In this document: piece by piece, positions 2,632 through 13,710 of the stretch
Numbering within the stretch: position 1 is the first letter of the stretch
Layout: every line of letters starts with the position of its first letter
Assembly (NCBI GenBank): GCA_945947845.1
Contig: CAMEZN010000008.1
Span: forward strand, 1-13,710
Reading direction: 5' to 3'
Length of the DNA stretch: 13,710 bases
Source: an uncultured Mucispirillum sp.
Lineage (GTDB): Bacteria > Chrysiogenota > Deferribacteres > Deferribacterales > Mucispirillaceae
Made by a program: the position numbers and the translations under genes
Notes under the pieces: generated by a model
The model's input: only the letters and a program-made list of their open reading frames with translations
What the model was told of the DNA's origin: nothing
Database searches by the model: none

Positions 2632-3936
2632 ATGAGAGCAGATTTCGCAACAATTGGCAGCGGCTTGACCTACGAAATTAGAAATATTGTAGAGATAGCA
2701 AATTTTATGAAATCAAAAGGTTTAGAGATTTCATGGGAAAATATTGGCGACCCTGTTATGAAAGGAGAGCAGGTGCCTGAATGGATTAAAGATGTATTAA
2801 AAGAAGTTATTGATGATAATATGTCTTTTGCATATTCACCTACTAAGGGTGTAGATTCTACACGGGAATATTTAGCCGCCAAAAGAAATGCTCTTGGTGG
2901 AGCTCAAATCACAAAAGATGATATAATATTTTTTAACGGGCTTGGAGATGCTATTGCAAGAAGTTATTCGGTTATACGAGTTGATGCCCGCATAATTATG
3001 CCAGAGCCAACATATTCTACTCACTTTATGGCAGAAGTTGCCCATGCATCATTTCCACCAAATACTTATAAAATGAACCCATATAATAACTGGGCACCAG
3101 ATTTAGGAGAGCTGGAAAGGAAAATAAAAAGTGCTCAGTCTATTGTTGGTATACTTGTGATTAACCCTGATAACCCAACTGGTTATGTATATTCAAAAGA
3201 AAAACTTGCTGAGATTGTCCGTATAGCCCGCGAACATAATCTTTTTATTGTGGCAGATGAAATATATCATAATATGATATATAACGGGCAAAAAACTCCA
3301 TATTTATCAGAAGTTATTGGCGATGTGCCAGCTATCAGCATGAACTCCCTTTCAAAAGAAGTGCCTTGGCCGGGGGCAAGATGTGCATGGATAGAAGTAT
3401 ATAACTACGGCAAAGATGCAGATTTTGATAGATATATTCAGGCGATTTTTAAACAGAAACAGGCAGAAGTATGTTCTACTACTATGCCGCAAATGGCTAT
3501 ACCAAAACTTATGGAGCACCCAGAATATGCTAAATATTTACAGACAAGAGTTACTCATTATGAAAAACTGGCAGATATAGCATATAATGTATTAAAAGAT
3601 GTTCCTTATATTGTTGTTAATAGAAGTAATGGAGCATTCTATTTAAGTGTTGTATTTAATGAAGCTGTGCTGAATAATAAACAATATTTAGAAATGGAAA
3701 ATAAGGAAGTTAAAGAATATGTAAACAAGCTGCTTGATAATAATTCAGAACATGATAAAAGGTTTGCATATAATCTGCTTGGGGCAACAGGGATATGTGT
3801 TGTGCCGCTCACTTCGTTTTTCACTAACCTGCTTGGTTTTAGAATGACACTGCTTGAAAAAAATGTGGAAAAATTTGAAAGCAATGTGAAAATTATTGCT
3901 CAGAAAATTGTAGAGTATGTAGAATCAGCTAAATAA
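2632..3936 (+). CDS. PLP-dependent aminotransferase, class I/II (fold type I)
   Basis: Cytoplasmic pyridoxal-phosphate enzyme of 434 residues in the aspartate aminotransferase superfamily. Motifs in order: cofactor-anchoring GLGDA (103-107), NPDNPTG (178-184) with the PLP-ring asparagine, D209 and Y212 in VADEIYHN (D209 pairs with the pyridine nitrogen), the Schiff-base lysine K242 in SLSKEVPWPGAR with the phosphate-binding arginine R250, and R404 in GFRMTLLE, which should bind the substrate carboxylate. The length is slightly above the usual 390-400 because of a lysine-rich insertion at about 345-375. The substrate cannot be read from the motifs; alanine, aspartate or aromatic amino acids are all possible. 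The ATG at 2632 is preceded by AAGGTG, and the gene ends just before a strong terminator. It appears to be the last gene of the left block and has no evident link to the opposing Ter locus. Confidence 0.93.
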   Translation: MRADFATIGSGLTYEIRNIVEIANFMKSKGLEISWENIGDPVMKGEQVPEWIKDVLKEVIDDNMSFAYSPTKGVDSTREYLAAKRNALGGAQITKDDIIFFNGLGDAIARSYSVIRVDARIIMPEPTYSTHFMAEVAHASFPPNTYKMNPYNNWAPDLGELERKIKSAQSIVGILVINPDNPTGYVYSKEKLAEIVRIAREHNLFIVADEIYHNMIYNGQKTPYLSEVIGDVPAISMNSLSKEVPWPGARCAWIEVYNYGKDADFDRYIQAIFKQKQAEVCSTTMPQMAIPKLMEHPEYAKYLQTRVTHYEKLADIAYNVLKDVPYIVVNRSNGAFYLSVVFNEAVLNNKQYLEMENKEVKEYVNKLLDNNSEHDKRFAYNLLGATGICVVPLTSFFTNLLGFRMTLLEKNVEKFESNVKIIAQKIVEYVESAK

Positions 3937-3941
3937 AGCAT

Positions 3942-3976
3942 AAAACCCTTTTGGTATTTTCCAAAAGGGTTTTTTT
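3942..3976 (+). terminator. intrinsic terminator between the convergent blocks
   Basis: A perfect 13-bp stem pairs AAAACCCTTTTGG (3942-3954) with CCAAAAGGGTTTT (3961-3973) around a 6-nt loop, followed by further T residues (to 3976) and an AT-rich stretch. It begins 5 nt after the aminotransferase stop. On the minus strand the same hairpin follows the YceG-like stop codon by only a few nt, with a short four-T tail, so it may also stop, less strongly, the opposing Ter operon. Seen directly in the sequence. Confidence 0.9.
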
Positions 3977-3979
3977 ATA

Positions 3980-6286
3980 TTATTTTTTACCGAATATTTT
4001 TGAAATAAATTCCTGTGCTATAAATGATTTATCTATATCAGATGGCATATAGTCATATTCATAAGTGCCAGCTTCATAGCTTACAAAAAGCGGTTCGCTG
4101 TAATATGTTTCTACTACTTGGTATCCTGTTGGGGCATATAGTGCAATATCAAAGCCTGCATAATGCAGAAATGCAAAAAGGATTGCATCATCAAGTGAAA
4201 AATTAGTTTCATTACATGCTATTGCCACAACTTTTGGTATATATTTTGTAAAATCAAACTTTTGAATAAGCCTGATTATATCTTTATCCATATTTAAGAC
4301 AACATTTATAATTCTGTATTCCATACCCTGAGAAAAAGTGCCGTTAATTATTCTGCTGTCTATTAGAAGCTGTAATTTATCAAGTATATGTTCCTGAGTT
4401 TCATTCCGCAGTATTTTATACTTATAGGAAGGACTGTTTTTTATTTTATCCCTTAAAAGTTTTCCATTTTTTAAGACATCTGCCGGGTTAAGCTTGTTTG
4501 GAGAAGCATGCCTTATATATGGTGGGTGTTTGATTAATAATGTATCTTCACCAAGTTTTTTACGGATATTTTCCCAGTATAGTTTTTTATTATCATCTTT
4601 TACCCCATTTATTTTTGCAGCTATTACAGGCAGAAGCACTGTATTATTTACAGTTTCAAAACCCGGTCTGAATGTTGCAGGTTCATGCCATAAAATATTA
4701 ATTTCTTCAAGCATTGTTTGAAGTTTTAATGAGTCTGCTTTATGATACTGCCTGTGCCTGTATAAGCCGCTGTCAGTATATAATGTTTGAGTTAATTCCT
4801 GCTCTGCATTATATGCTGCTGTTGAAATAACTGTATCATCTGCACTTAATGGCAGTTTATCTATATTTAAATAATCATCATACTTTTGGATAAAAAGCAT
4901 ATTATCTTCAAGCATACATGAATTATTTTCAGCAGGGCACAATATAAGCACATCAACAGGTATATTTGATAAAAACTTAAAAAATACTGATTCAAAATTT
5001 GTTTTACAGCCGCCAAAGTAAATTAAAACTGGTGTTTTGCCGTTTTGAGTATACTTACTAAATAAAGCAGAAGCAAACCTGTTAAACCAGCAGAGAATGT
5101 ATACTGCCTTGTTATTCAGGCGGTTGAGCTTTTCTTCACTGTCATTCATTATAGTATCATAAAATGATTTATAAATAATATTATCAAGCTGTGGAACAGC
5201 ACTTCGCCACATTAAAGGATATAATAAACCAATAATTTCTTCTTTTGATGAAATCTGCCTTCTAGGTATCCTTTCCGTTTCTTTTATAGATGGAATATCA
5301 AAATCCTTTATTTCAAGTAAAGTTCTTTTGTTCTGCTCTATTTTTTTCTGGAATAGGAATAAGTCTTTACTGTATGTTGATTTATTCCAAACACCAGTAA
5401 TTTTTACAAAAGCATTATATATATAATCTTCACTGCCTCTTTCATTCTGTTCTTTTAAGATATCTTCTAATGTATTACCACTAAGCCATGTATTTGTATT
5501 AACATACGGTTTTTGCTGTGGTATATTTATTCTGCTGTTATGCTTTGGCTTATCAGATGACTGCTGTTTTATATCATCTTTTGCAGGTGCAGTCTTTTGC
5601 TGGATATTATTATTTTTACCAAGGTTTAATATATATGATGGATTAAATTCTGCTGGAAAGTTTTTTTCAGCCTTATCTTTATATAAAAAAGAAAGTGAGC
5701 CATTTTTATCTGCCTTATTATAGCTTTCTTCATCTTGTATAAACATTAATACATCACAGCCGCACTCTGCTATCAGGCGGAGAAATAATAATTCATGGTT
5801 TGATATGCTGCCAATATATATAATTTTTGGAAGATTATCCTGCCCCAGTTTATTCATAATACTATTAAGCTTGTAATATGCCCAACACATAAATTTGACA
5901 AAAATATTTTTCAGCATATTTACACTTTTGCCTTCCTGCAAAAGAATGTTTAAAATATCTGCTGTGCTTTCTGCAACTATATTCTGCTGGAAACTGTTAA
6001 GATTTGGAAGCCATTTTTGTATAATTTTTAGGATAAACTGCTGATTATTTTCAAAATCATGACCTATGATTGTTTCATAATATTCAAGTTGTTTTTCATC
6101 AGGATTATTTAATTTTTCAGATACTAGAAGTCCATATTTATTTTTATTTTCTACTATATTTTTTAAAAATATTTCTATTTCACTGCCATAGTTATATGCT
6201 CTTATAAAATAAGTATTTTTATTCTGCCGTTCATTTAAAGGTTTCAAAAAGTCATTAAGTGATGCTGTATCTGATAATCTAAACAT
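3980..6286 (-). CDS. yceG: YceG-like protein of the Ter-associated biosynthetic module, three tandem repeats
   Basis: Large soluble protein of 768 residues placed in the YceG family of Gram-positive ter loci (not E. coli YceG/MltG). The family is listed as a component of the Ter 'biosynthetic module'; its reaction is unknown. The placement rests on gene context and overall character, with no diagnostic motif known to me. The sequence shows three diverged copies of one unit. A strand-like motif recurs as FIRAYNYG (27-34), FVKITGV (293-299) and AAKINGV (556-562). A Rossmann-like strand-helix-strand recurs from P153 (PKIIYIG…CDVLMF), P419 (PVLIYFGG…VDVLIL) and P684 (PKVVAIAC…FDIALY). Copies 1 and 2 also share a preceding CW pair in a helix. 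The period is about 265 residues, while B. subtilis YceG (about 540) is shorter. A low-complexity Q/N/K linker lies at about 223-265. The ATG at 6286 is chosen over the one at 6337: GGAG (6292-6295) sits five nt upstream, and the longer start would overlap the preceding gene. Last gene of the operon, 17 nt downstream of the StiP-like gene. Confidence 0.78.
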   Translation of the reverse strand: MFRLSDTASLNDFLKPLNERQNKNTYFIRAYNYGSEIEIFLKNIVENKNKYGLLVSEKLNNPDEKQLEYYETIIGHDFENNQQFILKIIQKWLPNLNSFQQNIVAESTADILNILLQEGKSVNMLKNIFVKFMCWAYYKLNSIMNKLGQDNLPKIIYIGSISNHELLFLRLIAECGCDVLMFIQDEESYNKADKNGSLSFLYKDKAEKNFPAEFNPSYILNLGKNNNIQQKTAPAKDDIKQQSSDKPKHNSRINIPQQKPYVNTNTWLSGNTLEDILKEQNERGSEDYIYNAFVKITGVWNKSTYSKDLFLFQKKIEQNKRTLLEIKDFDIPSIKETERIPRRQISSKEEIIGLLYPLMWRSAVPQLDNIIYKSFYDTIMNDSEEKLNRLNNKAVYILCWFNRFASALFSKYTQNGKTPVLIYFGGCKTNFESVFFKFLSNIPVDVLILCPAENNSCMLEDNMLFIQKYDDYLNIDKLPLSADDTVISTAAYNAEQELTQTLYTDSGLYRHRQYHKADSLKLQTMLEEINILWHEPATFRPGFETVNNTVLLPVIAAKINGVKDDNKKLYWENIRKKLGEDTLLIKHPPYIRHASPNKLNPADVLKNGKLLRDKIKNSPSYKYKILRNETQEHILDKLQLLIDSRIINGTFSQGMEYRIINVVLNMDKDIIRLIQKFDFTKYIPKVVAIACNETNFSLDDAILFAFLHYAGFDIALYAPTGYQVVETYYSEPLFVSYEAGTYEYDYMPSDIDKSFIAQEFISKIFGKK

Positions 6287-6303
6287 AAAAACTCCAATAT
6301 ACT

Positions 6304-7350
6304 TTATATATCTGCCATATTTTTTATAATACCACATGCTTTGTAATTTTTTAATGGATAATTTATTATCTCTACATTTTTTTCCTTTGCAAGTTGTATA
6401 ATATGTTTAATATCACTGCCTTCTACTGTGCTGTTTATAATAATCTTCCAAGGTATTCTTCTAAGAAGCACACGGGTTGTTTCTCCTATACCCGGTTTAA
6501 TAAAATTGATATTTGATATATTATATGTTTTTGCAATATTATTTACTTCATCAATACCTTTTGTAACTGGTCTTTTTATATTTTTTATTTCTATTTCAGG
6601 AAAATATTTACAGCATTTATCAATAAATTCATATGTTTTATCATCATTTTTAAATTCTTCATAGTATGCAGCACCATGAAAATCATCTTCTTTTATAATA
6701 TCATTTCTTAGAAATGTTCTGCTGATAAGTCCAGATACAGTGCAGTTAAAACAGGAGCTTGGAATAAGTATATCTTCATAAGTGCCAGCATACTGTGTAA
6801 TATTTGCAGGGTCTGCAAGAACAGCCAGTTCTTTATTTATATTATCATAATTTTTCAGTGATTTTATTAATTCGTTCTGTATAGCACCTTTTCCAGTCCA
6901 GCCGTCTATAAAAACAATACTTTCTGCACTGTGATGATTTAATATATATTTTATTGCATTATTATCTATACCTTTATCCCTGATGATAGATACTGCATAA
7001 TGAACCGCATTAATATTATACTTATACTTTAAAAACCGTTTAACAAGAATCCCGGCAGGAATTCCAGCTCTTGCAAGTGATACTAGTGTAATATTTTCTC
7101 CATACTTTTTAAACAGTATACTGCTTAAATCAGCAGCTGCCTGAGCAGTAATTAATGCTCCTTCTTCAAGATAATCATAATAGAGCCTGTTATATCTTTC
7201 AGTAGGCTGATATTCCAGCGGCAGCATTTCACAATAATGGGTGCCAGACTGTATAAGAGGCTCTCTTTCTTTTGCACTTAACGGGATTACTAACCCTGTA
7301 ATATCTTTAAGCAGCAGTTTAACATCATCATCAATAAATGAACTTTGCAA
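6304..7350 (-). CDS. StiP-like PRTase with C-terminal Pelota-type RNA-binding domain
   Basis: A 348-residue cytoplasmic protein. Databases often call this family 'cysteine protease StiP', but the sequence is that of a type I phosphoribosyltransferase-like enzyme. SGTHYCEMLPLEYQPT (35-50) is a family signature. VSLARAGIPAGIL (90-102) and the PRPP-loop equivalent FIDGWTGKGAI (147-157) form the PRTase-like core, followed by VLADPA (177-182) and conserved cysteines in SSCFNCTVSG (198-207). Residues from about 259 (KRPVTKGIDEVNNIAK…INSTVEGSDIKHII…ACGIIK) resemble a Pelota/L7Ae-like RNA-binding domain. Together with the PRTase-TRSP protein, HAD and lyase it is proposed to make a nucleoside-like compound; the chemistry is inferred. 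The start is TTG, directly after the TAA of the preceding gene, with GGGAG (7359-7363) eight nt upstream inside that gene; the next in-frame methionine is residue 42, inside the signature, so TTG is preferred. Confidence 0.88.
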   Translation of the reverse strand: MQSSFIDDDVKLLLKDITGLVIPLSAKEREPLIQSGTHYCEMLPLEYQPTERYNRLYYDYLEEGALITAQAAADLSSILFKKYGENITLVSLARAGIPAGILVKRFLKYKYNINAVHYAVSIIRDKGIDNNAIKYILNHHSAESIVFIDGWTGKGAIQNELIKSLKNYDNINKELAVLADPANITQYAGTYEDILIPSSCFNCTVSGLISRTFLRNDIIKEDDFHGAAYYEEFKNDDKTYEFIDKCCKYFPEIEIKNIKRPVTKGIDEVNNIAKTYNISNINFIKPGIGETTRVLLRRIPWKIIINSTVEGSDIKHIIQLAKEKNVEIINYPLKNYKACGIIKNMADI

Positions 7351-8481
7351 TTAATTATCTCCCAGCATAAAAATAAAAATATTATCATTATTATGTATCT
7401 TTAAGGCATTTACTAATGAATATATACCTTTTTTATTATTTATACCATCAGAAACTATTATTACACTACTATATTTTTTTAAATTATAAATATATGTTAC
7501 TCTTTCTTTTTCATAAAAACTTTCAAGGCTGTATCTTGTATTTAAAGGGTATCCTTTATGATTTCCAGTCATAATAGGGCTTCTTGTTGTGGCATGAAAA
7601 AGTATATTTTTAGTATTTTTCTGCATTAGTTTTGATATATAAAGACCCGGATACATACATTCTTCTGTTCCTAATACTAAAATATCATTATCTAATATAT
7701 TTATGTGGCTGTTTATGATTTTTGCTGCTTCTTCTATACTTTTTTTATATTCTGAAAATTTAACAGCAAACCTTGGGTTAATATATTTTTTAAAGTGAAA
7801 AATACCGCTGTTAGATATTTCATTATTATTAGATTGAAAATAACTGCCTTCTAAACTAATATTTTTAATCTGCTCTGCTATAATTTCATTATCTGTTTTT
7901 AAAAGATAAAGGGGTGTAATATGGTTATTATGGAATCTTTCTAATGACTTGCTGTCCATACCATTTATAAATGATAATACCCATATTTTTTTAGTTTCTA
8001 TATTAGAAAACTTTTCTTTTAATACATTAATAAGATTAATAATTGTATTTCCAGTTGTTATTTCATCTTCAACAAATACTATATGTCTAATTTTTTTAAG
8101 AATATTATCAAGCCCTTTAATGTAAAGTTTTTGGGAAGCAGCATGGCTGTGCACTTCTGAAAAATAAAGACATTCTTCATCTGGATAATTTTCTCTTGTT
8201 GTAGTAATAAAATAAGAATCTTTATTTAAATTACTGCATACACAGGCTCCAAGAGCTGTTGCCGTTTCTGCAAATGCAATAACGAGCACAGGTTCATTTT
8301 CTGCAATATTTTTAAATTTATCTGCTAAATCTTTTGCTTTATTAAAAAATTTTTCAGGTGAAGCAGGTATATGCTTACATAAAACAGGGTTTACTATTAA
8401 GTATGAACGGAGCTTATTATTATCTCGTTTAGCTGCCCTGACCATTTCTTTATAAAGAGAGTTGTTTTCTATATTTTCCAT
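7351..8481 (-). CDS. phosphoribosyltransferase with C-terminal TRSP domain (Ter biosynthetic module)
   Basis: A 376-residue cytoplasmic protein with two domains. The N-terminal part is an orotate-PRTase-like domain: VIAFAETATALG (67-78), TTTRE (93-97) and the PRPP-binding loop FVEDEITTGNT (136-146), with acidic residues E138 and D139 for the ribose hydroxyls and the TTG turn for the 5'-phosphate. The C-terminal part (about 235-376) is the TRSP domain, named for the TRSP tetrapeptide seen at 299-302 in HATTRSPIMTG, followed by YPLNTRYSLESFYE and VIIVSDG (340-346). The expected reaction is transfer of a phosphoribosyl group to or from an unknown base in the proposed nucleoside-like pathway. Its ATG overlaps the stop of the upstream lyase gene by one nt (TAATG), a sign of translational coupling. 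The amino-acid composition is strongly skewed to N, I and K. Family assignment is confident and the substrate is unknown. Confidence 0.9.
   Translation of the reverse strand: MENIENNSLYKEMVRAAKRDNNKLRSYLIVNPVLCKHIPASPEKFFNKAKDLADKFKNIAENEPVLVIAFAETATALGACVCSNLNKDSYFITTTRENYPDEECLYFSEVHSHAASQKLYIKGLDNILKKIRHIVFVEDEITTGNTIINLINVLKEKFSNIETKKIWVLSFINGMDSKSLERFHNNHITPLYLLKTDNEIIAEQIKNISLEGSYFQSNNNEISNSGIFHFKKYINPRFAVKFSEYKKSIEEAAKIINSHINILDNDILVLGTEECMYPGLYISKLMQKNTKNILFHATTRSPIMTGNHKGYPLNTRYSLESFYEKERVTYIYNLKKYSSVIIVSDGINNKKGIYSLVNALKIHNNDNIFIFMLGDN
7359..7363 (-). promoter_or_regulatory. ribosome-binding site that fixes the TTG start of the StiP-like gene
   Basis: On the minus strand GGGAG lies eight nt before the TTG at 7350-7348 and inside the last codons of the PRTase-TRSP gene. 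The stop TAA (7353-7351) is directly followed by TTG, so terminating ribosomes can reinitiate. This site supports TTG over the first ATG, which would remove the conserved N-terminus. Confidence 0.7.
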
Positions 8482-9446
8482 TAAACAGCACCATAAATAT
8501 TATAAAGTTCAATAATCTTTTTTGCCCAGTTAATATGAGTTTTATATTCATTCATACGGCTTCCATTACTGCTTTTAGAAACAAGAAAATCTGTATTGTT
8601 TTCCATATTAATAATATTTACTGCATCATCATAATCATGTTTTTTAACAGCAAACTGGGAGTTTACAACAGGTATCTGGTTAGGGTGGATAACAGTTTTC
8701 CCAATAAATCCGTTAATTTTATCTTTTTTAATTTCATTTATCAGGCCTTCTTTCCAGCCATCTAAGTTAAAATATTCCCAAACAGCTGCTGATACAATAT
8801 ATTCATGGGAAAATGCCGTAATAATATCCACTAAAATACTATTTACTGAGCCAATATCATAAATAGTTTCATTTACATTTCGCCTTATACCATAGTGATG
8901 ACAGAAATCATTTCCACCCACTCTAATATTCAGCACATATTGTTTTATATTATCAATATCTGTCTTAATATGAGAAAGTAACGATGTTCTCATATCCAGT
9001 TTAAATAAATCTATACTTTCAAGCACTGGCATTAAATAAATTATTTTTGTGCTGCTGCTGTTAATTTTAAGTACTGCATCTATATACTGTTTTGAATTAG
9101 TTATTGTAAATTTAGGGGCAATAAAGCCTGCAACTAAATCCATAAAAGAGCCAAGCAGAGCGGTAAGTGTATATATTTGCTGTGGATTTCTTACACGAAT
9201 AAATAATTTTGGCAGGTAAAAGTCATTATTTAAATTATATTTATAAAGAGTAGAAAGTGTGTCATAAAGTTGTTTTTCTGCCAGAGAAACTGCATTATCT
9301 GCAATAGAATCTTCTAAACATAATGCAAGTGAGTAGGGGGCAGGAATTTTGCCATTTAAAACACTTTCTGCTATATTTTCTTTTATGGCAGGAGCATATA
9401 ATAGAGCTCCAACACTATATGGTGATATTAAAGAGTTTTCTTTCAT
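8481..9446 (-). CDS. HpcH/HpaI aldolase / CitE-like lyase (Ter biosynthetic module)
   Basis: A 321-residue TIM-barrel enzyme of the HpcH/HpaI–citrate lyase beta (CitE) superfamily, metal-dependent enzymes that cleave or form C-C bonds next to a carboxylate or thioester. Visible motifs: ALCLEDSIAD (41-50) with the acidic pair E45/D46, FIRVRNP (82-88) with a phosphate- or carboxylate-binding arginine, LMPVLES (138-144) with the likely Mg2+ ligand E143, RVGGNDF (175-181) with the second ligand D180, and GKTVIHPNQI (249-258), the conserved C-terminal signature. It differs from true CitE in lacking CitD/CitF neighbours, and it belongs to the branch found in ter operons, where it may attach or remove a small acid in the proposed metabolite. 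The ATG is preceded by GGGAG (9451-9455). It lies 19 nt downstream of the HAD gene and overlaps the following PRTase gene by one nt. Confidence 0.88.
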   Translation of the reverse strand: MKENSLISPYSVGALLYAPAIKENIAESVLNGKIPAPYSLALCLEDSIADNAVSLAEKQLYDTLSTLYKYNLNNDFYLPKLFIRVRNPQQIYTLTALLGSFMDLVAGFIAPKFTITNSKQYIDAVLKINSSSTKIIYLMPVLESIDLFKLDMRTSLLSHIKTDIDNIKQYVLNIRVGGNDFCHHYGIRRNVNETIYDIGSVNSILVDIITAFSHEYIVSAAVWEYFNLDGWKEGLINEIKKDKINGFIGKTVIHPNQIPVVNSQFAVKKHDYDDAVNIINMENNTDFLVSKSSNGSRMNEYKTHINWAKKIIELYNIYGAV

Positions 9447-9465
9447 ATTTCTCCCTGCTGTAAAA

Positions 9466-10221
9466 TTAAATTAATTTAATAACATTTTCTACAACCTTGT
9501 CTGAAAAAAGCTCTCCCTGTGGTATTTTTATATACTTATCAGAATGATGTAAATATGGCAGTTCATCTGGAAAAATAGCATAATTGGCAGCTTCCAGTAA
9601 AGGAATATCAAAAAAGCTGTCGCCAGCAGAAACAATATTATCTATACTTACTGTATAATCATTAATAAATTTTTTTAATGCTTTACCTTTATCTATACTT
9701 TCTGGAACCACATATACTTTACTAAAATTTGTATATACTTTGACCGGCTCATTTTGCAGGCTGTTTTGCAGCATATCTACTGTTATTTCAGGCTTGCTGC
9801 TTTTTGTATAAATAAATAAGTTATCAACCAGCTTTATATCATATATTCTATATTCATGGTTTTCTAAAAGTTCTTTTGCTTTATTTAATGCAAAAACTGC
9901 ATTTTGTATTGTATTTATGAAATAATCATGCCATTGTCTGCTAGGCTTTCCATCTATTAAAAGGCTTCCACCGTTACTTGTAATAGCATATTTTGGCTGC
10001 CAGCAGCTGAATGTTATTCTTTTAAACTGTTCAATACTTCTTGTGGTTACAGGGACAAATAAGCTGTTTTCATATATATAATCCAGCTTTTCCTGTGTAT
10101 TTTTAGTAATAAATGATATATTTGAGCCTTCATATAATTCACAAGGAATTTTTTCAGCATTAAGCTCCTTTTTGTGTGAATATATTAATGTATTATCTAT
10201 ATCAGAAGCAAAAAGGAGCAT
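9466..10221 (-). CDS. HAD-superfamily phosphatase, Cof-like (Ter biosynthetic module)
   Basis: A 251-residue haloacid dehalogenase-type hydrolase, probably a Mg2+-dependent phosphatase for a small sugar- or nucleotide-like phosphate. All four motifs are present: motif I DIDNTL with nucleophile D7 and acid/base D9; motif II VPVTTRS (T59/T60); motif III lysine K178 in DKGKAL; motif IV GDSFFDIPLL with D201 and D205. The roughly 90 residues between motif II and III form a C2-type cap, typical of Cof/sucrose-phosphate-phosphatase-like members, which often act on phosphorylated sugars. It lies between the Ca2+ ATPase (gap 11 nt) and the lyase (gap 19 nt). The ATG has a good GAGG site overlapping the end of the ATPase gene. 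In the proposed pathway it would dephosphorylate the PRTase-derived product; that step is inference. Confidence 0.88.
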   Translation of the reverse strand: MLLFASDIDNTLIYSHKKELNAEKIPCELYEGSNISFITKNTQEKLDYIYENSLFVPVTTRSIEQFKRITFSCWQPKYAITSNGGSLLIDGKPSRQWHDYFINTIQNAVFALNKAKELLENHEYRIYDIKLVDNLFIYTKSSKPEITVDMLQNSLQNEPVKVYTNFSKVYVVPESIDKGKALKKFINDYTVSIDNIVSAGDSFFDIPLLEAANYAIFPDELPYLHHSDKYIKIPQGELFSDKVVENVIKLI

Positions 10222-10232
10222 ATATACCTCAA

Positions 10233-12863
10233 TTAAAGAGTTTTAGGTGTTAATATTTTGCGGATAATATCAACAGGATACATTGTTAATGCCATAAGGA
10301 TAACAACTACCCAGCCGCTTAAACCAAAACGCTGGCAGCTGAATATTTCGCCTATTACACCGCCAACACTTACAAGAGCAGCCTGCACAAGTATAATTAC
10401 TACCCATATTTTTATAAACATAGGGTTTTCTTTGATATGTTCAAATACATTTAAACTATCACTTCTTACATTAAAAGCATTTACCATAAATGCAAAAACA
10501 AACATAGCAAAGTAGCCAGTATAGAATTGTGCTTCAGTTTCAAAAAATTGTTGGAAAATACCAGATTTAAACCAGAATATGCTGATAGCTGTAAGCCATA
10601 AGCTCATTACAAGTATTTGGACTGCCATTTTTCTGCTTATAATATTTTCATCTCTTCTTCTTGGTTTATCTCTCATATATTTTTCAAGTGCTGCTTCACC
10701 TGCAAACATAATAGAAGCAAGTGCGTCCATACATAAGTTAATCCAAAGTAAATGTGTAACTTTTAATGGGCTTTTTATACCAATAAATGGGCTGATTGCA
10801 GAAACAAATACAGCTGCCAAGTTAATTACAAGCTGCATTTTACAGAATTTTAAAATATTTATGTATAATGTTCTGCCATACCATACTGCATTTTTAATAG
10901 AATTAAAGTTATCATCAAGAATAACAAGTTTTCCAGCTTCTTTTGCCACATCAGTTCCACTGCCCATAGCAAAGCCTACATCTGCTCGTTTTAATGCTGG
11001 ACCGTCATTTACACCGTCGCCAGTCATACCAACAACTAAATTCATTTCCTGACATATTTTTACCATGCGGCTTTTATCTGTTGGCATAGCTCTTGATATT
11101 ACTTTTATTTTAGGAAGAATTTTTTTAATTTCTTCATCGCTCATAGCACTAAGTTCGTTAGAAGTAAGAACTATATCATCATTATTTTTGAAAAGCCCAG
11201 CTTCTTTTGCAATGGCAACAGCAGTTTCTTTTCTATCACCTGTAATCATTACAACCTGAATACCTGCTTTCTGCACTTCTTCTATTGCTTGTTTTGCTTC
11301 CTGACGAACATCATCTCTTATACCAACAAACCCTATTAGCACTACATCGTTTTGGATAACATCTTTTTCCATTTTACTGCTGCTGTATCCAAAAGCTAAT
11401 ACTCTCATTGCTCTGTTAGAAAGCTCATTTATTTTTTCATCTATTACAGCCTGATTTACTTCTTTCTTCTGACCATCTTCTGTTAAAAAATATTTTGCTT
11501 TTTCAAGGAGTTTTTCAGGAGCACCTTTATAGTAAGTTCTGCCTGCTTGTTCTATATATACTTGGCTGAATTTATTAGAACTGTTAAATTCCTGATGCTC
11601 TGTTGCATGATACTGGCTGTTATTTACTTCATTATATGATTCTTCTCCAAGGAATTTTAATAATGCTTGGTCTGTCATATTGCCGCCAATAACATTATGT
11701 TCTGTATCAAACATAGCACTTGTATTTTTACCAATACAAAGGTTTAATTCTTTTTCTATTTCTTTATGCTGTTTGTAGTTAATTAGTTTTGCATCGCCTG
11801 TAAAAAATTCTACAACTTCCAGCTGTCCTTTTGTTATTGTGCCTGTTTTATCACTAAAAAGTATGTTTAGTGAGCCTGCCGTTTCAATACCGATTGATTT
11901 TCTTACAAGAACATTAACTTTCAACAGTTTTCCAGTATTTTGCATTAAAACTAATGCAATAACAAGTGGAAGTCCTTCTGGCACTGCACATACTATGATA
12001 GTTACTGCAATAGCAAGAGCAGTCATTATATCCCCTGCAATAGCAAGCCAGTCCTTAGAAAAATATGCTGCTGCACCGCCTGCCTGCATTATGTAGAATA
12101 CAAGATATGATAAAGCAATAACTATTGCACCTATATAACCAAAGATAGATATTTGATGAGCAAGTTTATTAAGTTTAACTTTTAATGGAGAATCTGGCTC
12201 TTTTTCTTCCATATCTTTTGCCATTTGCCCCATCATAGTTGCTTCACCAACTCGCTGCACCTGCATAATACCTTCGCCGTCTAATACAACAGCACCACGG
12301 AAAAGGCTGTGCTTATCAACAAATGTATCACCTGATATATTTTCAGGCAGTTTAAAAGAAGAATCTGCTGTTTTGCGACATTCTTCTGCTTCACCATTTA
12401 AAGCACTGTTATCTACATCTAGTAAACCGTCATATAATATTCCATCAGCTAGTATTTTATCGCCAGAATGGAGTATAATCATATCGCCTACAACAATATC
12501 ATCTACTTCAATTACTTTTATCCCGCCATCTCTGTATATTTTGGCAGTATCTTTTTTTTGTGATTGTTTTAATTTACGGTATGCATTATCGTTTGAAACA
12601 CTTGTTTTTGCAGATACTAGGTTTACTAATAAAACTGCAATGATTGTTCCTACTGGTTCATACCAGTGGCTTTGTCCAAAAAAGAACATTACAAGCATTA
12701 ATACAGCAATAACACATAATATACGAATCATAGGGTCTTGGAAACCCTCTAAAAATGCTTGAAAAAATGTTACTGGCTCTGCTTCTTTTATGGCATTTGA
12801 GCCATATTTTTTTCGGCTTTCTTCTACCTGAGCCTGTGTTAAACCTAAATTTTTATTTTCCAT
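10233..12863 (-). CDS. Ca2+-transporting P-type ATPase, PMCA (P2B) type
   Basis: An 876-residue integral membrane pump with the complete P2 layout. The N-terminal cation-ATPase domain leads to two membrane segments (about 45-62, 68-84). The A domain carries NGEAE (156-160), with the catalytic Glu of the TGE motif kept although T is replaced by N. Segments 3-4 contain VPEGLP (294-299). The phosphorylated aspartate is D338 in DKTGT, the nucleotide lysine is in KGAPE (446-450), and TGDRKE (541-546) and TGDGVND (614-620) close the P domain. Ca2+ ligands E296 (segment 4) and N709/D713 (NLCMD, segment 6) are present, while segment 5 (QLVINLAAV) lacks the glutamate of SERCA's site I, which points to a single-site PMCA-like exporter. 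There is no calmodulin-type tail. First gene of the operon: an intrinsic terminator lies upstream, and AAGG (12871-12874) is seven nt before the ATG. Ca2+ specificity is inferred; Mn2+ is an alternative. Confidence 0.94.
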   Translation of the reverse strand: MENKNLGLTQAQVEESRKKYGSNAIKEAEPVTFFQAFLEGFQDPMIRILCVIAVLMLVMFFFGQSHWYEPVGTIIAVLLVNLVSAKTSVSNDNAYRKLKQSQKKDTAKIYRDGGIKVIEVDDIVVGDMIILHSGDKILADGILYDGLLDVDNSALNGEAEECRKTADSSFKLPENISGDTFVDKHSLFRGAVVLDGEGIMQVQRVGEATMMGQMAKDMEEKEPDSPLKVKLNKLAHQISIFGYIGAIVIALSYLVFYIMQAGGAAAYFSKDWLAIAGDIMTALAIAVTIIVCAVPEGLPLVIALVLMQNTGKLLKVNVLVRKSIGIETAGSLNILFSDKTGTITKGQLEVVEFFTGDAKLINYKQHKEIEKELNLCIGKNTSAMFDTEHNVIGGNMTDQALLKFLGEESYNEVNNSQYHATEHQEFNSSNKFSQVYIEQAGRTYYKGAPEKLLEKAKYFLTEDGQKKEVNQAVIDEKINELSNRAMRVLAFGYSSSKMEKDVIQNDVVLIGFVGIRDDVRQEAKQAIEEVQKAGIQVVMITGDRKETAVAIAKEAGLFKNNDDIVLTSNELSAMSDEEIKKILPKIKVISRAMPTDKSRMVKICQEMNLVVGMTGDGVNDGPALKRADVGFAMGSGTDVAKEAGKLVILDDNFNSIKNAVWYGRTLYINILKFCKMQLVINLAAVFVSAISPFIGIKSPLKVTHLLWINLCMDALASIMFAGEAALEKYMRDKPRRRDENIISRKMAVQILVMSLWLTAISIFWFKSGIFQQFFETEAQFYTGYFAMFVFAFMVNAFNVRSDSLNVFEHIKENPMFIKIWVVIILVQAALVSVGGVIGEIFSCQRFGLSGWVVVILMALTMYPVDIIRKILTPKTL

Positions 12864-12938
12864 AAAAAGACCTTATATATTATATTTTCACATTGTATAG
12901 TAAGTGATATATTTTAATGTTTATTTATAAAATATAAA
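12864..12938 (-). promoter_or_regulatory. probable promoter region of the six-gene Ter operon
   Basis: This very AT-rich stretch lies between the terD terminator and the ATPase start, so transcription of the ATPase-to-YceG run most likely begins here. A possible sigma-70-type -10 (TATACA, 12899-12894 on the minus strand) with a poor -35 (TAAACA, 12924-12919) has a spacer of 19 nt, longer than ideal. A perfect TATAAT (12884-12879) is too near the ribosome-binding site to be comfortable. The location is inferred from the terminator; the exact boxes are uncertain. No clear operator was found. Confidence 0.4.
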
Positions 12939-12969
12939 AAATAGAGTTATCTTATGGATAACTCTATTT
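12936..12969 (-). terminator. intrinsic terminator after terD
   Basis: A perfect 13-bp stem pairs 12957-12969 with 12939-12951 around a 5-nt loop (12952-12956). On the minus strand it is followed by a run of T residues and further AT-rich sequence, the correct arrangement to end the terD transcript about 30 nt after its stop codon. The hairpin separates the TerD genes from the ATPase-led operon; read-through cannot be excluded. Confidence 0.85.
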
Positions 12970-12997
12970 ATAAATTAGAATGGCAAAAGCCATATTA

Positions 12998-13597
12998 TTA
13001 TTGATATCTTGCTGCTAATTCTCTTAAACCGGGGTCTTGTGTGCCTTGCCCAAGTGCATTAAATTTCCATTCGCCATCATGGCGGTATACTTCGCCGAAT
13101 ATCATAGCTGTCATATTTGTATAATCATCAGAAAGGTTATATCTTAATATTTCTTGATTATCTCTTGAATCTACAAGGCGGATAAAAGCATTTTGTATCA
13201 TACCAAAATGCTGTTTACGGCTTACAGCACTATAAATATTTACTACAAATACAATTCTGTTATATTCTTCTGGAACTTGACTTAATGTAATAATAATTTG
13301 TTCATCATCACCATCGCCATCACCAGTTAAGTTATCGCCCATATGCTGAACTGATTTTGAAGCATGTTTTAAGTTGCCAAAATATATAATATCGTTGCCG
13401 TTAGTTAATTTATCATTTTTAAGCATGAATACTGATGCATCGCAGTCAATATCTGGTGCTGATGAAAGCAGAGATGATAAAAAACCACCTTTTTTTTCTG
13501 CTTTTGCGTCCCAGCCTAAGCCGATAACAACTTTATCAAGCCCTGCTTTTTCTTTTGAAAGGCTTACTTTTTGTCCTTTTGTTAAACTTACTGCCAT
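12998..13597 (-). CDS. terD: TerD-family Ca2+-binding stress protein
   Basis: A 199-residue cytoplasmic protein of the TerD family (TerD/TerE/TerZ, Bacillus YceC/D/E), linked to tellurite, phage and other stress responses; members bind Ca2+ through clustered acidic residues. Motifs in order: MAVSLTKGQKVSLSK at the N-terminus, GLGWD (26-30), DIDCDASVFML (49-59), GDNLTGDGDGDDEQI (87-101), which carries the main acidic Ca2+-binding cluster, NIYSA (120-124), FIRLVD (138-143) and the C-terminal EWKFNALGQG (176-185). Residues 31-48 form a lysine/glycine/serine-rich loop longer than in minimal TerD. The last residues (TQDPGLRELAARYQ) depart from the usual FxGGLxALxxxYG ending. AGGAG (13607-13611) lies nine nt before the ATG. 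It follows another TerD-family gene by 18 nt, probably in one transcript ending at 12936-12969. Confidence 0.93.
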   Translation of the reverse strand: MAVSLTKGQKVSLSKEKAGLDKVVIGLGWDAKAEKKGGFLSSLLSSAPDIDCDASVFMLKNDKLTNGNDIIYFGNLKHASKSVQHMGDNLTGDGDGDDEQIIITLSQVPEEYNRIVFVVNIYSAVSRKQHFGMIQNAFIRLVDSRDNQEILRYNLSDDYTNMTAMIFGEVYRHDGEWKFNALGQGTQDPGLRELAARYQ

Positions 13598-13615
13598 ACT
13601 TTTTCTCTCCTTTTT

Positions 13616-13710
13616 TTACTCAGTTTCTACACCATAATTTGCACATAATGCAGCAAGTCCACCTTGAAAACCGCTGCCTATTGCATTAAATTTCCATTCA
13701 TTATTATGTC
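13616..13710 (-). CDS. TerD-family protein, C-terminal fragment (5' part beyond window)
   Basis: Only the last 30 codons and the stop (13616-13618) are in the window. Translated from the minus strand they read [20 protein letters not shown] and on to …CANYGVETE, the classic C-terminus of TerD proteins (EWKF…G.GF.GGL.AL…YGV). It is therefore a second TerD-family paralogue, lying 18 nt upstream of the complete terD and probably cotranscribed with it. The closest match within the window is the corresponding part of that terD (EWKFNALGQG), but this copy keeps the canonical GGL ending. The acidic Ca2+-binding region is outside the window, so the subtype cannot be assigned. Confidence 0.9.

Follow-up and report, generated by a model that had tools for sequence, protein, structure and literature searches.

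A horizontally acquired Ter stress island with a putative small-molecule ribosylation cassette in an uncultured Mucispirillum

RESULTS

A Ter island in a Deferribacterales draft genome

The window analyzed here is the entire contig CAMEZN010000008.1 (C8; 13,710 bases) of the draft genome of an uncultured Mucispirillum sp. (G000; 1.93 Mb, 336 contigs, 75% complete). From position 3980 to the end of the window, all the genes lie on the minus strand and encode, from left to right, a YceG-domain protein, a StiP-Pelota protein, a PRTase_2-TRSP phosphoribosyltransferase (PRTase), a lyase, an HAD phosphatase, a Ca2+ ATPase, and TerD, followed by the last part of another TerD (Table 1). They belong to an island of ten genes, namely those for TelA, three TerD proteins, the ATPase, HAD, lyase, PRTase_2-TRSP, StiP-Pelota, and YceG. 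An earlier, sequence-only reading of the window had described it as a Ter locus whose enzymes are of a set thought capable, by proposal, of nucleoside-like metabolite synthesis, and both the families and their linkage to TerD fit that description. The enzyme genes were placed at the right coordinates and every enzyme was named correctly, as judged from Pfam and NCBIfam profile matches: PRTase_2, TRSP, PELOTA_1, and YceG_bac were all matched, and the lyase was assigned to C-C_Bond_Lyase. The same reading placed TerD paralogues next to a tight operon. The spacing is indeed tight (the StiP and PRTase genes are adjacent, the PRTase and lyase genes overlap by 1 base, and 19 and 11 bases separate lyase from HAD and HAD from ATPase, respectively), but a 2.6-kb PMCA ATPase gene that it omitted stands between TerD and the enzymes, and only one of the two TerD genes in the window is whole, the second being cut by the contig end.

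Table 1. Features of the island and its left flank in the window
Feature	Coordinates	Strand	Evidence
PRK06855-family aminotransferase (native flanking gene, left side)	2632..3936	+	NF005334, 672 bits (cut-off 443)
Two-way terminator-like hairpin, 13-pair stem, common to the aminotransferase and the island end; left boundary	3942..3973	both	Pattern match
YceG-domain protein	3980..6337 (likely start 6286)	-	PF14266 (YceG_bac), 1.8e-89, three stretches
StiP domain and PELOTA_1 RNA-binding domain, TTG start	6304..7350	-	PF11202, 6e-97; PF15608, 8e-31
PRTase_2 and TRSP phosphoribosyltransferase, PRPP loop VEDEITTGNT intact	7351..8481	-	PRTase_2, 5e-45; TRSP, 3e-23
CitE/HpcH-type C-C bond lyase	8481..9446	-	PF15617 (C-C_Bond_Lyase), 1e-97
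HAD-IIB phosphatase	9466..10221	-	TIGR01484, 45.4 bits (cut-off 41.8)
PMCA-type Ca2+ P-type ATPase	10233..12863	-	TIGR01517, 569.6 bits (cut-off 507)
Terminator-like hairpin, 13-pair, between the TerD and ATPase genes	12939..12969	-	Pattern match
TerD, whole	12998..13597	-	PF02342, 9e-77
Second TerD, C-terminal end (about the last 25 residues), cut by the contig end	13634..13708	-	Profile positions 163-187

The hairpin between them may keep TerD partly separate from the ATPase-enzyme unit, and the ATPase gene and the five genes after it may form a unit with partial read-through from TerD. Terminator-like sites were called by pattern match; the region has 11 of them, where 4.9 would be expected. 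Between TerD and the ATPase in the two other island-bearing genomes of the genus (L037/L038 of G001 and G006), a different hairpin-like sequence was seen by eye.

Distribution and insertion site within the genus

TerD, PRTase_2 (over the cut-off), StiP, and the PMCA ATPase were each found in the same three of the ten genus genomes (G000, G001, and G006, the last two being 97% and 95% complete), and the island genes were linked to TerD in all three. The genus thus did not show the scattering away from TerD that would have spoken against the sequence-only reading. Among the genus genomes that are at least 90% complete, TerD, StiP, and the ATPase occurred in two of seven. PRTase_2 over the cut-off was absent from all others of the 59 relatives searched. 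In G001 and G006, a run on one contig comprises OMP2, OMP1, TelA, three TerD genes, ATPase, HAD, lyase, PRTase_2, StiP, and YceG. In G000, contig C102 (L005) carries TelA, OMP1, OMP2, DUF4241, and two TerD genes, one of which is truncated where the contig stops. On the plus strand, the left part of the window carries der (called from homologues), a small multidrug-resistance protein (SMR) gene, and the aminotransferase gene; the first gene of the window we take, by its sequence, to be gltX. Among the Der relatives listed, those with names come from Deferribacterales or close kin. Since G003 (L151) and G004 (L152), in the order 4HBT-DUF4241-OMP2-OMP1-...-aminotransferase-SMR-Der, join the flanks seen on C102 and C8, these two contigs are very probably neighbours, and the locus would continue on C102 with TerD and TelA.

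The aminotransferase is present in nine of the ten genus genomes. In four island-less genomes (L150–L153, corresponding to G007, G003, G004, and G005), a single contig carries both the aminotransferase and OMP1 genes, and no Ter gene lies between the two. They are 117 bases apart in G007; in the rest, one or two other small frames occupy the interval (L151, 6727–7617; L152, 6825–7867; L153, 1949–2869), as if it were a variable site. The remaining three island-less genomes are uninformative about the site, either because the two genes lie on different contigs or, in G002, because no aminotransferase was found. The island and the OMPs of G006 lie away from the aminotransferase, and the locus has therefore been rearranged there too. 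OMP2 is present in all ten genomes, and the OMPs are native neighbours outside the Ter system. Neither OMP1 nor OMP2 (L005, 2493–4835) has a Pfam match, and a beta-barrel-like fold was guessed by eye; the relatives of OMP1 include proteins of Brachyspira, Brevinematales, and Bdellovibrionaceae, some with PF28590. Two tRNA genes lie beside the right flank of the island (L005, 6004–6160, minus strand).

The islands have diverged from one another, with identities of 81–86% for TelA, TerD, and the ATPase, 53–72% for the enzymes, and 56% for YceG. Despite divergence of up to 47%, the four enzymes are all intact in the three islands.

Conserved residues of the PRTase_2-TRSP, lyase, and HAD enzymes

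The alignments used 64 of 66 available rows for the PRTase, 41 of 54 for the lyase, 36 of 44 for HAD, 49 of 75 for StiP, and 28 of 30 for YceG. The motifs quoted in the sequence-only reading (DIDNTL/GDSFFD, LMPVLES/GGNDF, and VEDEITTGNT) are present in the translations; among the relatives, the catalytic residues of HAD and the lyase are better kept than the strings. In HAD, residues D7, D9, T11, K178, D201, and D205 are kept in 36/36 rows, with DxDNT and GDSxxD each in 30/36. In the lyase, E143 and D180 occur in at least 90% of the 41 rows, GxxGKxxIHPxQ in 40, GGND in 36, and MPxLE in 26. The lyase profile was nearest to 5vxc (mitochondrial citrate lyase subunit beta-like, 3e-8) and to malyl-CoA lyases, which suggests a role for coenzyme A (CoA). 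Against the curated citrate lyase beta and RipC families, the lyase scored 26.4 of 443.4 and 33.2 of 375 bits, far short of the cut-offs.

The PRTase_2 motif [ED]D[EDG]x[TS]TGxT is kept in 64/64 rows, and the profile aligned with control PRTases (hhalign probability 88.9, E 2.4e-6). The curated cut-off of the purine salvage PRTases (APRT/HPRT) was not reached, the best NCBIfam score being 27.7 bits against 200. Neither the PRTase nor the lyase is thus placed in an ordinary salvage or citrate family. As an alternative, the proteins with a PRTase fold might regulate or act as stress effectors on nucleotides or RNA, in the way of PyrR or some anti-phage PRTases, and have no dedicated product. Against PADLOC, PRTase_2 gave weak matches, only to PRTase_III-A (the retron type III-A PRTase; best 8e-5), and the other six proteins tested matched no family at E 0.01. 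The predicted fold of PRTase_2 is APRT-like, with APRT rows ranking above PyrR, and the linked HAD phosphatase and C-C lyase, with their conserved catalytic residues, suggest metabolism. We consider regulation somewhat unlikely on these grounds.

StiP-Pelota resembles PRTases by motif

SLARAG is kept in 49/49 StiP rows and DGWxGKG in 48/49. RAG, SIIR, and the DGWxGKG motif, which resembles the loop that binds phosphoribosyl pyrophosphate (PRPP), are invariant across six diverse StiP proteins, and by this resemblance, judged by eye, StiP appears to be PRTase-like. The NCBI and Pfam names instead call StiP a cysteine protease, which would make the module proteolytic and not biosynthetic. Among the closer relatives, Cys200 (46/49 rows) and Cys339 (48/49) are near-invariant; however, Cys200 is replaced by Ala in L038, and no cysteine column is invariant in the six diverse proteins, in which RAG, SIIR, and DGWxGKG are. 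A proteolytic module is therefore very improbable, and the name "cysteine protease StiP" is doubtful. Relabelling would mend a misleading name: of 72,556 plasmid records, 2,567 gave a StiP match, and the annotation read StiP cysteine protease in 22 of the 25 rows listed. A 15-kb record titled "Bacteriophage sp." (MT836648.1) encodes a StiP that is 56% identical to that of the window; this record may be a mislabelled Firmicutes contig.

YceG belongs by context with the TelA/TerD unit

Residue M18 of YceG is a nearly invariant start column in alignment A2, so the gene likely spans 3980–6286 and would therefore not overlap StiP. The AlphaFold model (pLDDT 79.8, pTM 0.42) has three parts, of which the first two are homologous repeats (hhalign probability 97 for part 1 against part 2), with part 3 unlinked (10.5 and 3.7). 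The Walker A motif was looked for and found in 0/28 rows of the YceG alignment. The sequence-only reading had counted YceG in the enzyme module, but the context differs: in the Firmicutes loci described below, TelA follows 27 of 30 long YceG genes, so YceG fits the TelA/TerD stress unit better than it does the enzyme cassette. The ATPase gene adjoins TerD, on either side, in 26 of the 33 Firmicutes loci that carry it. TerC was over the cut-off in 0/10 genus genomes, with a weak match in G002 only (20.1 bits against 27.8). In Clostridioides difficile, TerD synthesis goes up under metronidazole (PMC6262375).

Some Firmicutes loci encode, close to YceG, a protein that combines a weak YceG match with a trypsin-like domain. 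In L039 (12132–13463) and L058 (13992–15332), the YceG match (62.2 bits, and 24.7 bits, just below the cut-off of 25, respectively) is joined to a trypsin-like protease domain, and a rhomboid gene lies beside the L039 protein.

Related loci in the Firmicutes

A search with the StiP alignment confirmed at least 594 stretches, of which the best 80 were kept as Firmicutes loci; 42 of these came with about 21 kb of sequence and 38 were shorter. Their titles name Clostridia and other Firmicutes, except for three titled only "bacterium" (L049 among them), and the class of some of the named records is presumed. StiP was present in all 80 loci, PRTase_2 in 71, lyase in 57, HAD in 50, TerD in 44, the PMCA ATPase in 33, and YceG and TelA in 31 each; the figures for HAD and the ATPase rest on family matches, among which there may be paralogues. 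Linkage to TerD, which is constant in the three island-bearing genomes of the genus, is therefore frequent in the Firmicutes but not fixed (44/80 loci overall, and 25 of the 42 for which about 21 kb was available). PRTase_2 lies directly 5' of StiP in 69 of the 71 loci that have it. These two genes are the most stable pair, whereas HAD, lyase, and ATP-grasp vary more. In four loci (L088, L089, L090, and L092), StiP stands directly before HAD and the other six gene types were not found in the stretch; in L088, genes for FapA and DUF218 proteins stand ahead of StiP.

The ATP-grasp enzyme ATPgrasp_Ter (PF15632) was encoded in 17 of the 80 loci. In G000, G001, and G006, matches to its model were marginal and on other contigs (at most 25.4, 30.1, and 31.9 bits, respectively, against a cut-off of 29.1); those listed for G001 and G006 lie in frames of about 1,075–1,090 amino acids and, by size, are probably carbamoyl-phosphate synthase (CarB). 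The model also matched in 13 of 14 control genomes. Strong matches in 437-amino-acid frames occurred in G002 (C8, 5129–5473) and G007 (C1, 1144547–1144894), and no TerD was found in either genome.

All eight gene types occurred together in seven loci, on a single strand in five. Three of these (L049, L070, and L102) have the order lyase-PRTase_2-StiP-YceG-TelA-TerD-ATPase-HAD, and the other two (L052 and L079) are ordered otherwise. The island order, TelA-TerD-ATPase-HAD-lyase-PRTase_2-StiP-YceG, is the same circle cut elsewhere. These three loci also provide the three best matches outside the genus for the ATPase (72–75% identity, the next being 62%), HAD, lyase, and YceG, and are not all at the top for StiP, PRTase_2, and TelA. 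In phylogenetic trees built from the 35 loci, out of 83, that had PMCA and a minimum of five of the seven genes in all (best-scoring gene copy; midpoint rooting), the three islands formed a clade (support 1.0) nested with L102 and L070, with a support of 0.999 for all genes, 0.954 for StiP/PRTase_2/lyase/HAD, and 0.996 for YceG/TelA/ATPase. L049 joined next at 1.0 in the all-gene and YceG/TelA/ATPase trees. Because the trees of both halves agree and the order is rotated, the transfer of a single unit from Clostridia, with permutation, is most likely. A circular intermediate would account for the permuted order simply, and a single swap of two adjacent blocks fits equally well.

DISCUSSION

With moderate confidence, we favour the reading that the stretch is most of a horizontally acquired Firmicutes-type Ter stress island in which a four-enzyme cassette makes a ribosylated small molecule. 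The three TerD proteins, TelA, YceG, and the Ca2+ ATPase would form a metal- or calcium-linked envelope-stress unit. PRTase_2-TRSP would transfer ribose 5-phosphate from PRPP to a base-like acceptor, a C-C bond of which would be made or broken by the CitE-like lyase, probably as a CoA ester; HAD would remove the phosphate, and StiP-Pelota may provide a second PRTase-like, RNA-binding step. A pathway of this kind is supported by the occurrence of PRTase_2, an HAD-like protein, StiP, and the lyase with ATP-grasp on a Leclercia plasmid (L162), and of PRTase_2, an HAD-annotated protein, and StiP in phage ME3.

Several points weigh against this reading. The ATP-grasp enzyme, an optional member that occurs in a minority of the Firmicutes loci and on the ter plasmid, is not in the island, so "complete-looking", as the sequence-only reading had it, goes too far. 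hhalign gave no link of StiP to PRTase_2 or the control PRTases (probabilities 2.4, 0.2, and 2.1), whereas the PRTase_2 control did link. No TerD was found near StiP in 17 of the 42 loci with about 21 kb, and the enzymes can therefore occur without a neighbouring Ter unit. The relatives compared are the best 80 of at least 594, with 38 of them shortened. The four-enzyme tree does not place L049 with the island clade, the next node having a support of 0.63, and no product or activity of the Ter-linked enzymes was reported in the literature that we found. Since the island cassette is without the ATP-grasp enzyme, four genes may suffice for the product.

The island might instead be chiefly a calcium/metal and envelope-stress system into which the enzymes drifted as cargo. 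From island to island, TelA, TerD, and the Ca2+ ATPase have diverged less than the enzymes, although YceG has not, and YceG-TelA-TerD is a stable run in the Firmicutes. To our knowledge, the Bacillus subtilis operon yceCDEFGH has no biosynthetic enzymes. It is under sigma W, B, and M (PMC3498285). Conversely, the four enzymes have stayed intact in every island despite their divergence, PRTase and StiP remain linked in nearly all loci, and enzyme sets occur in the long stretches that have no TerD nearby, which together point to selection on the enzymes themselves. We therefore regard the cargo explanation as unlikely. A bolder extension of the biosynthetic reading, in which StiP-Pelota is a divergent PRTase with an RNA-binding domain that, under stress, exchanges into RNA a nucleotide analogue made by the cassette, and in which the ten-gene island spreads between phyla as circular DNA, would ascribe the rotated gene order to that circular form; we hold it to be distinctly improbable.

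Comparison with known systems

Anantharaman, Iyer, and Aravind reportedly proposed in 2012 that a Ter-linked module makes a nucleoside-like metabolite. Passages of two Klebsiella papers restate this proposal and name no compound (PMC8115787 and PMC12054061), and a further paper cites the 2012 work among its references (PMC9933665). Compared through Pfam names and citing passages, that module reportedly shares with the island PRTase_2-TRSP, StiP-Pelota, the C-C lyase, and HAD near TerD; the island differs in having no ATPgrasp_Ter, a Ca2+ ATPase in the gene run, no TerC over the cut-off, and a Deferribacterales host. To call this gene set the most likely undescribed biology in the window was thus too strong. 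The stretch is a real, intact, horizontally acquired example of an already described kind of system. As far as our searches go, the new points are that it occurs in the Deferribacterales, and at which insertion site, that its gene order is permuted, which group probably donated it, that it lacks the ATP-grasp enzyme, that YceG goes with the Ter unit, and that the name of StiP is open to doubt. The genus offers a natural comparison with and without the island at one defined chromosomal site, for a product in question since 2012, and the permuted order and agreeing trees document the movement of a whole stress system from the Firmicutes to the Deferribacterales.

Other Ter systems resemble the island in part. 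The classical terZABCDEF operon has the membrane protein TerC, which was not found over the cut-off in the genus. The B. subtilis operon is listed as yceCDEFGH (PMC3498285). Like the island, it would combine TerD-like genes with YceG and YceH/TelA, and YceF would be a TerC. The Acinetobacter jumbo phage ME3 (L163, 2109–5999) encodes PRTase_2 and StiP-Pelota by Pfam and HAD, TerD-like, and vWA proteins by annotation; no lyase, ATP-grasp, or ATPase is annotated in its 11-kb stretch, and its PRTase has no TRSP match. The Leclercia IncHI2A ter plasmid pP10164-2 (L162) carries PRTase_2-TRSP, an S6PP/HAD-like protein, StiP-Pelota (35% identical), and the C-C lyase beside ter genes, but differs in having ATPgrasp_Ter and annotated terZ, terB, terC, terD, terW, and vWA/TerY-C genes, with the enzyme genes on the opposite strand to terZ–terD. 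The closest systems are L049 ("bacterium"), L070 (uncultured Clostridia), and L102 (Butyricicoccus pullicaecorum). Their linear order runs from lyase to HAD, whereas that of the island runs from TelA to YceG, but they share with it the same eight gene types, strand, and cyclic order; in each of the three trees, the island is nearest to L070 and L102, and L049 is next in two of them.

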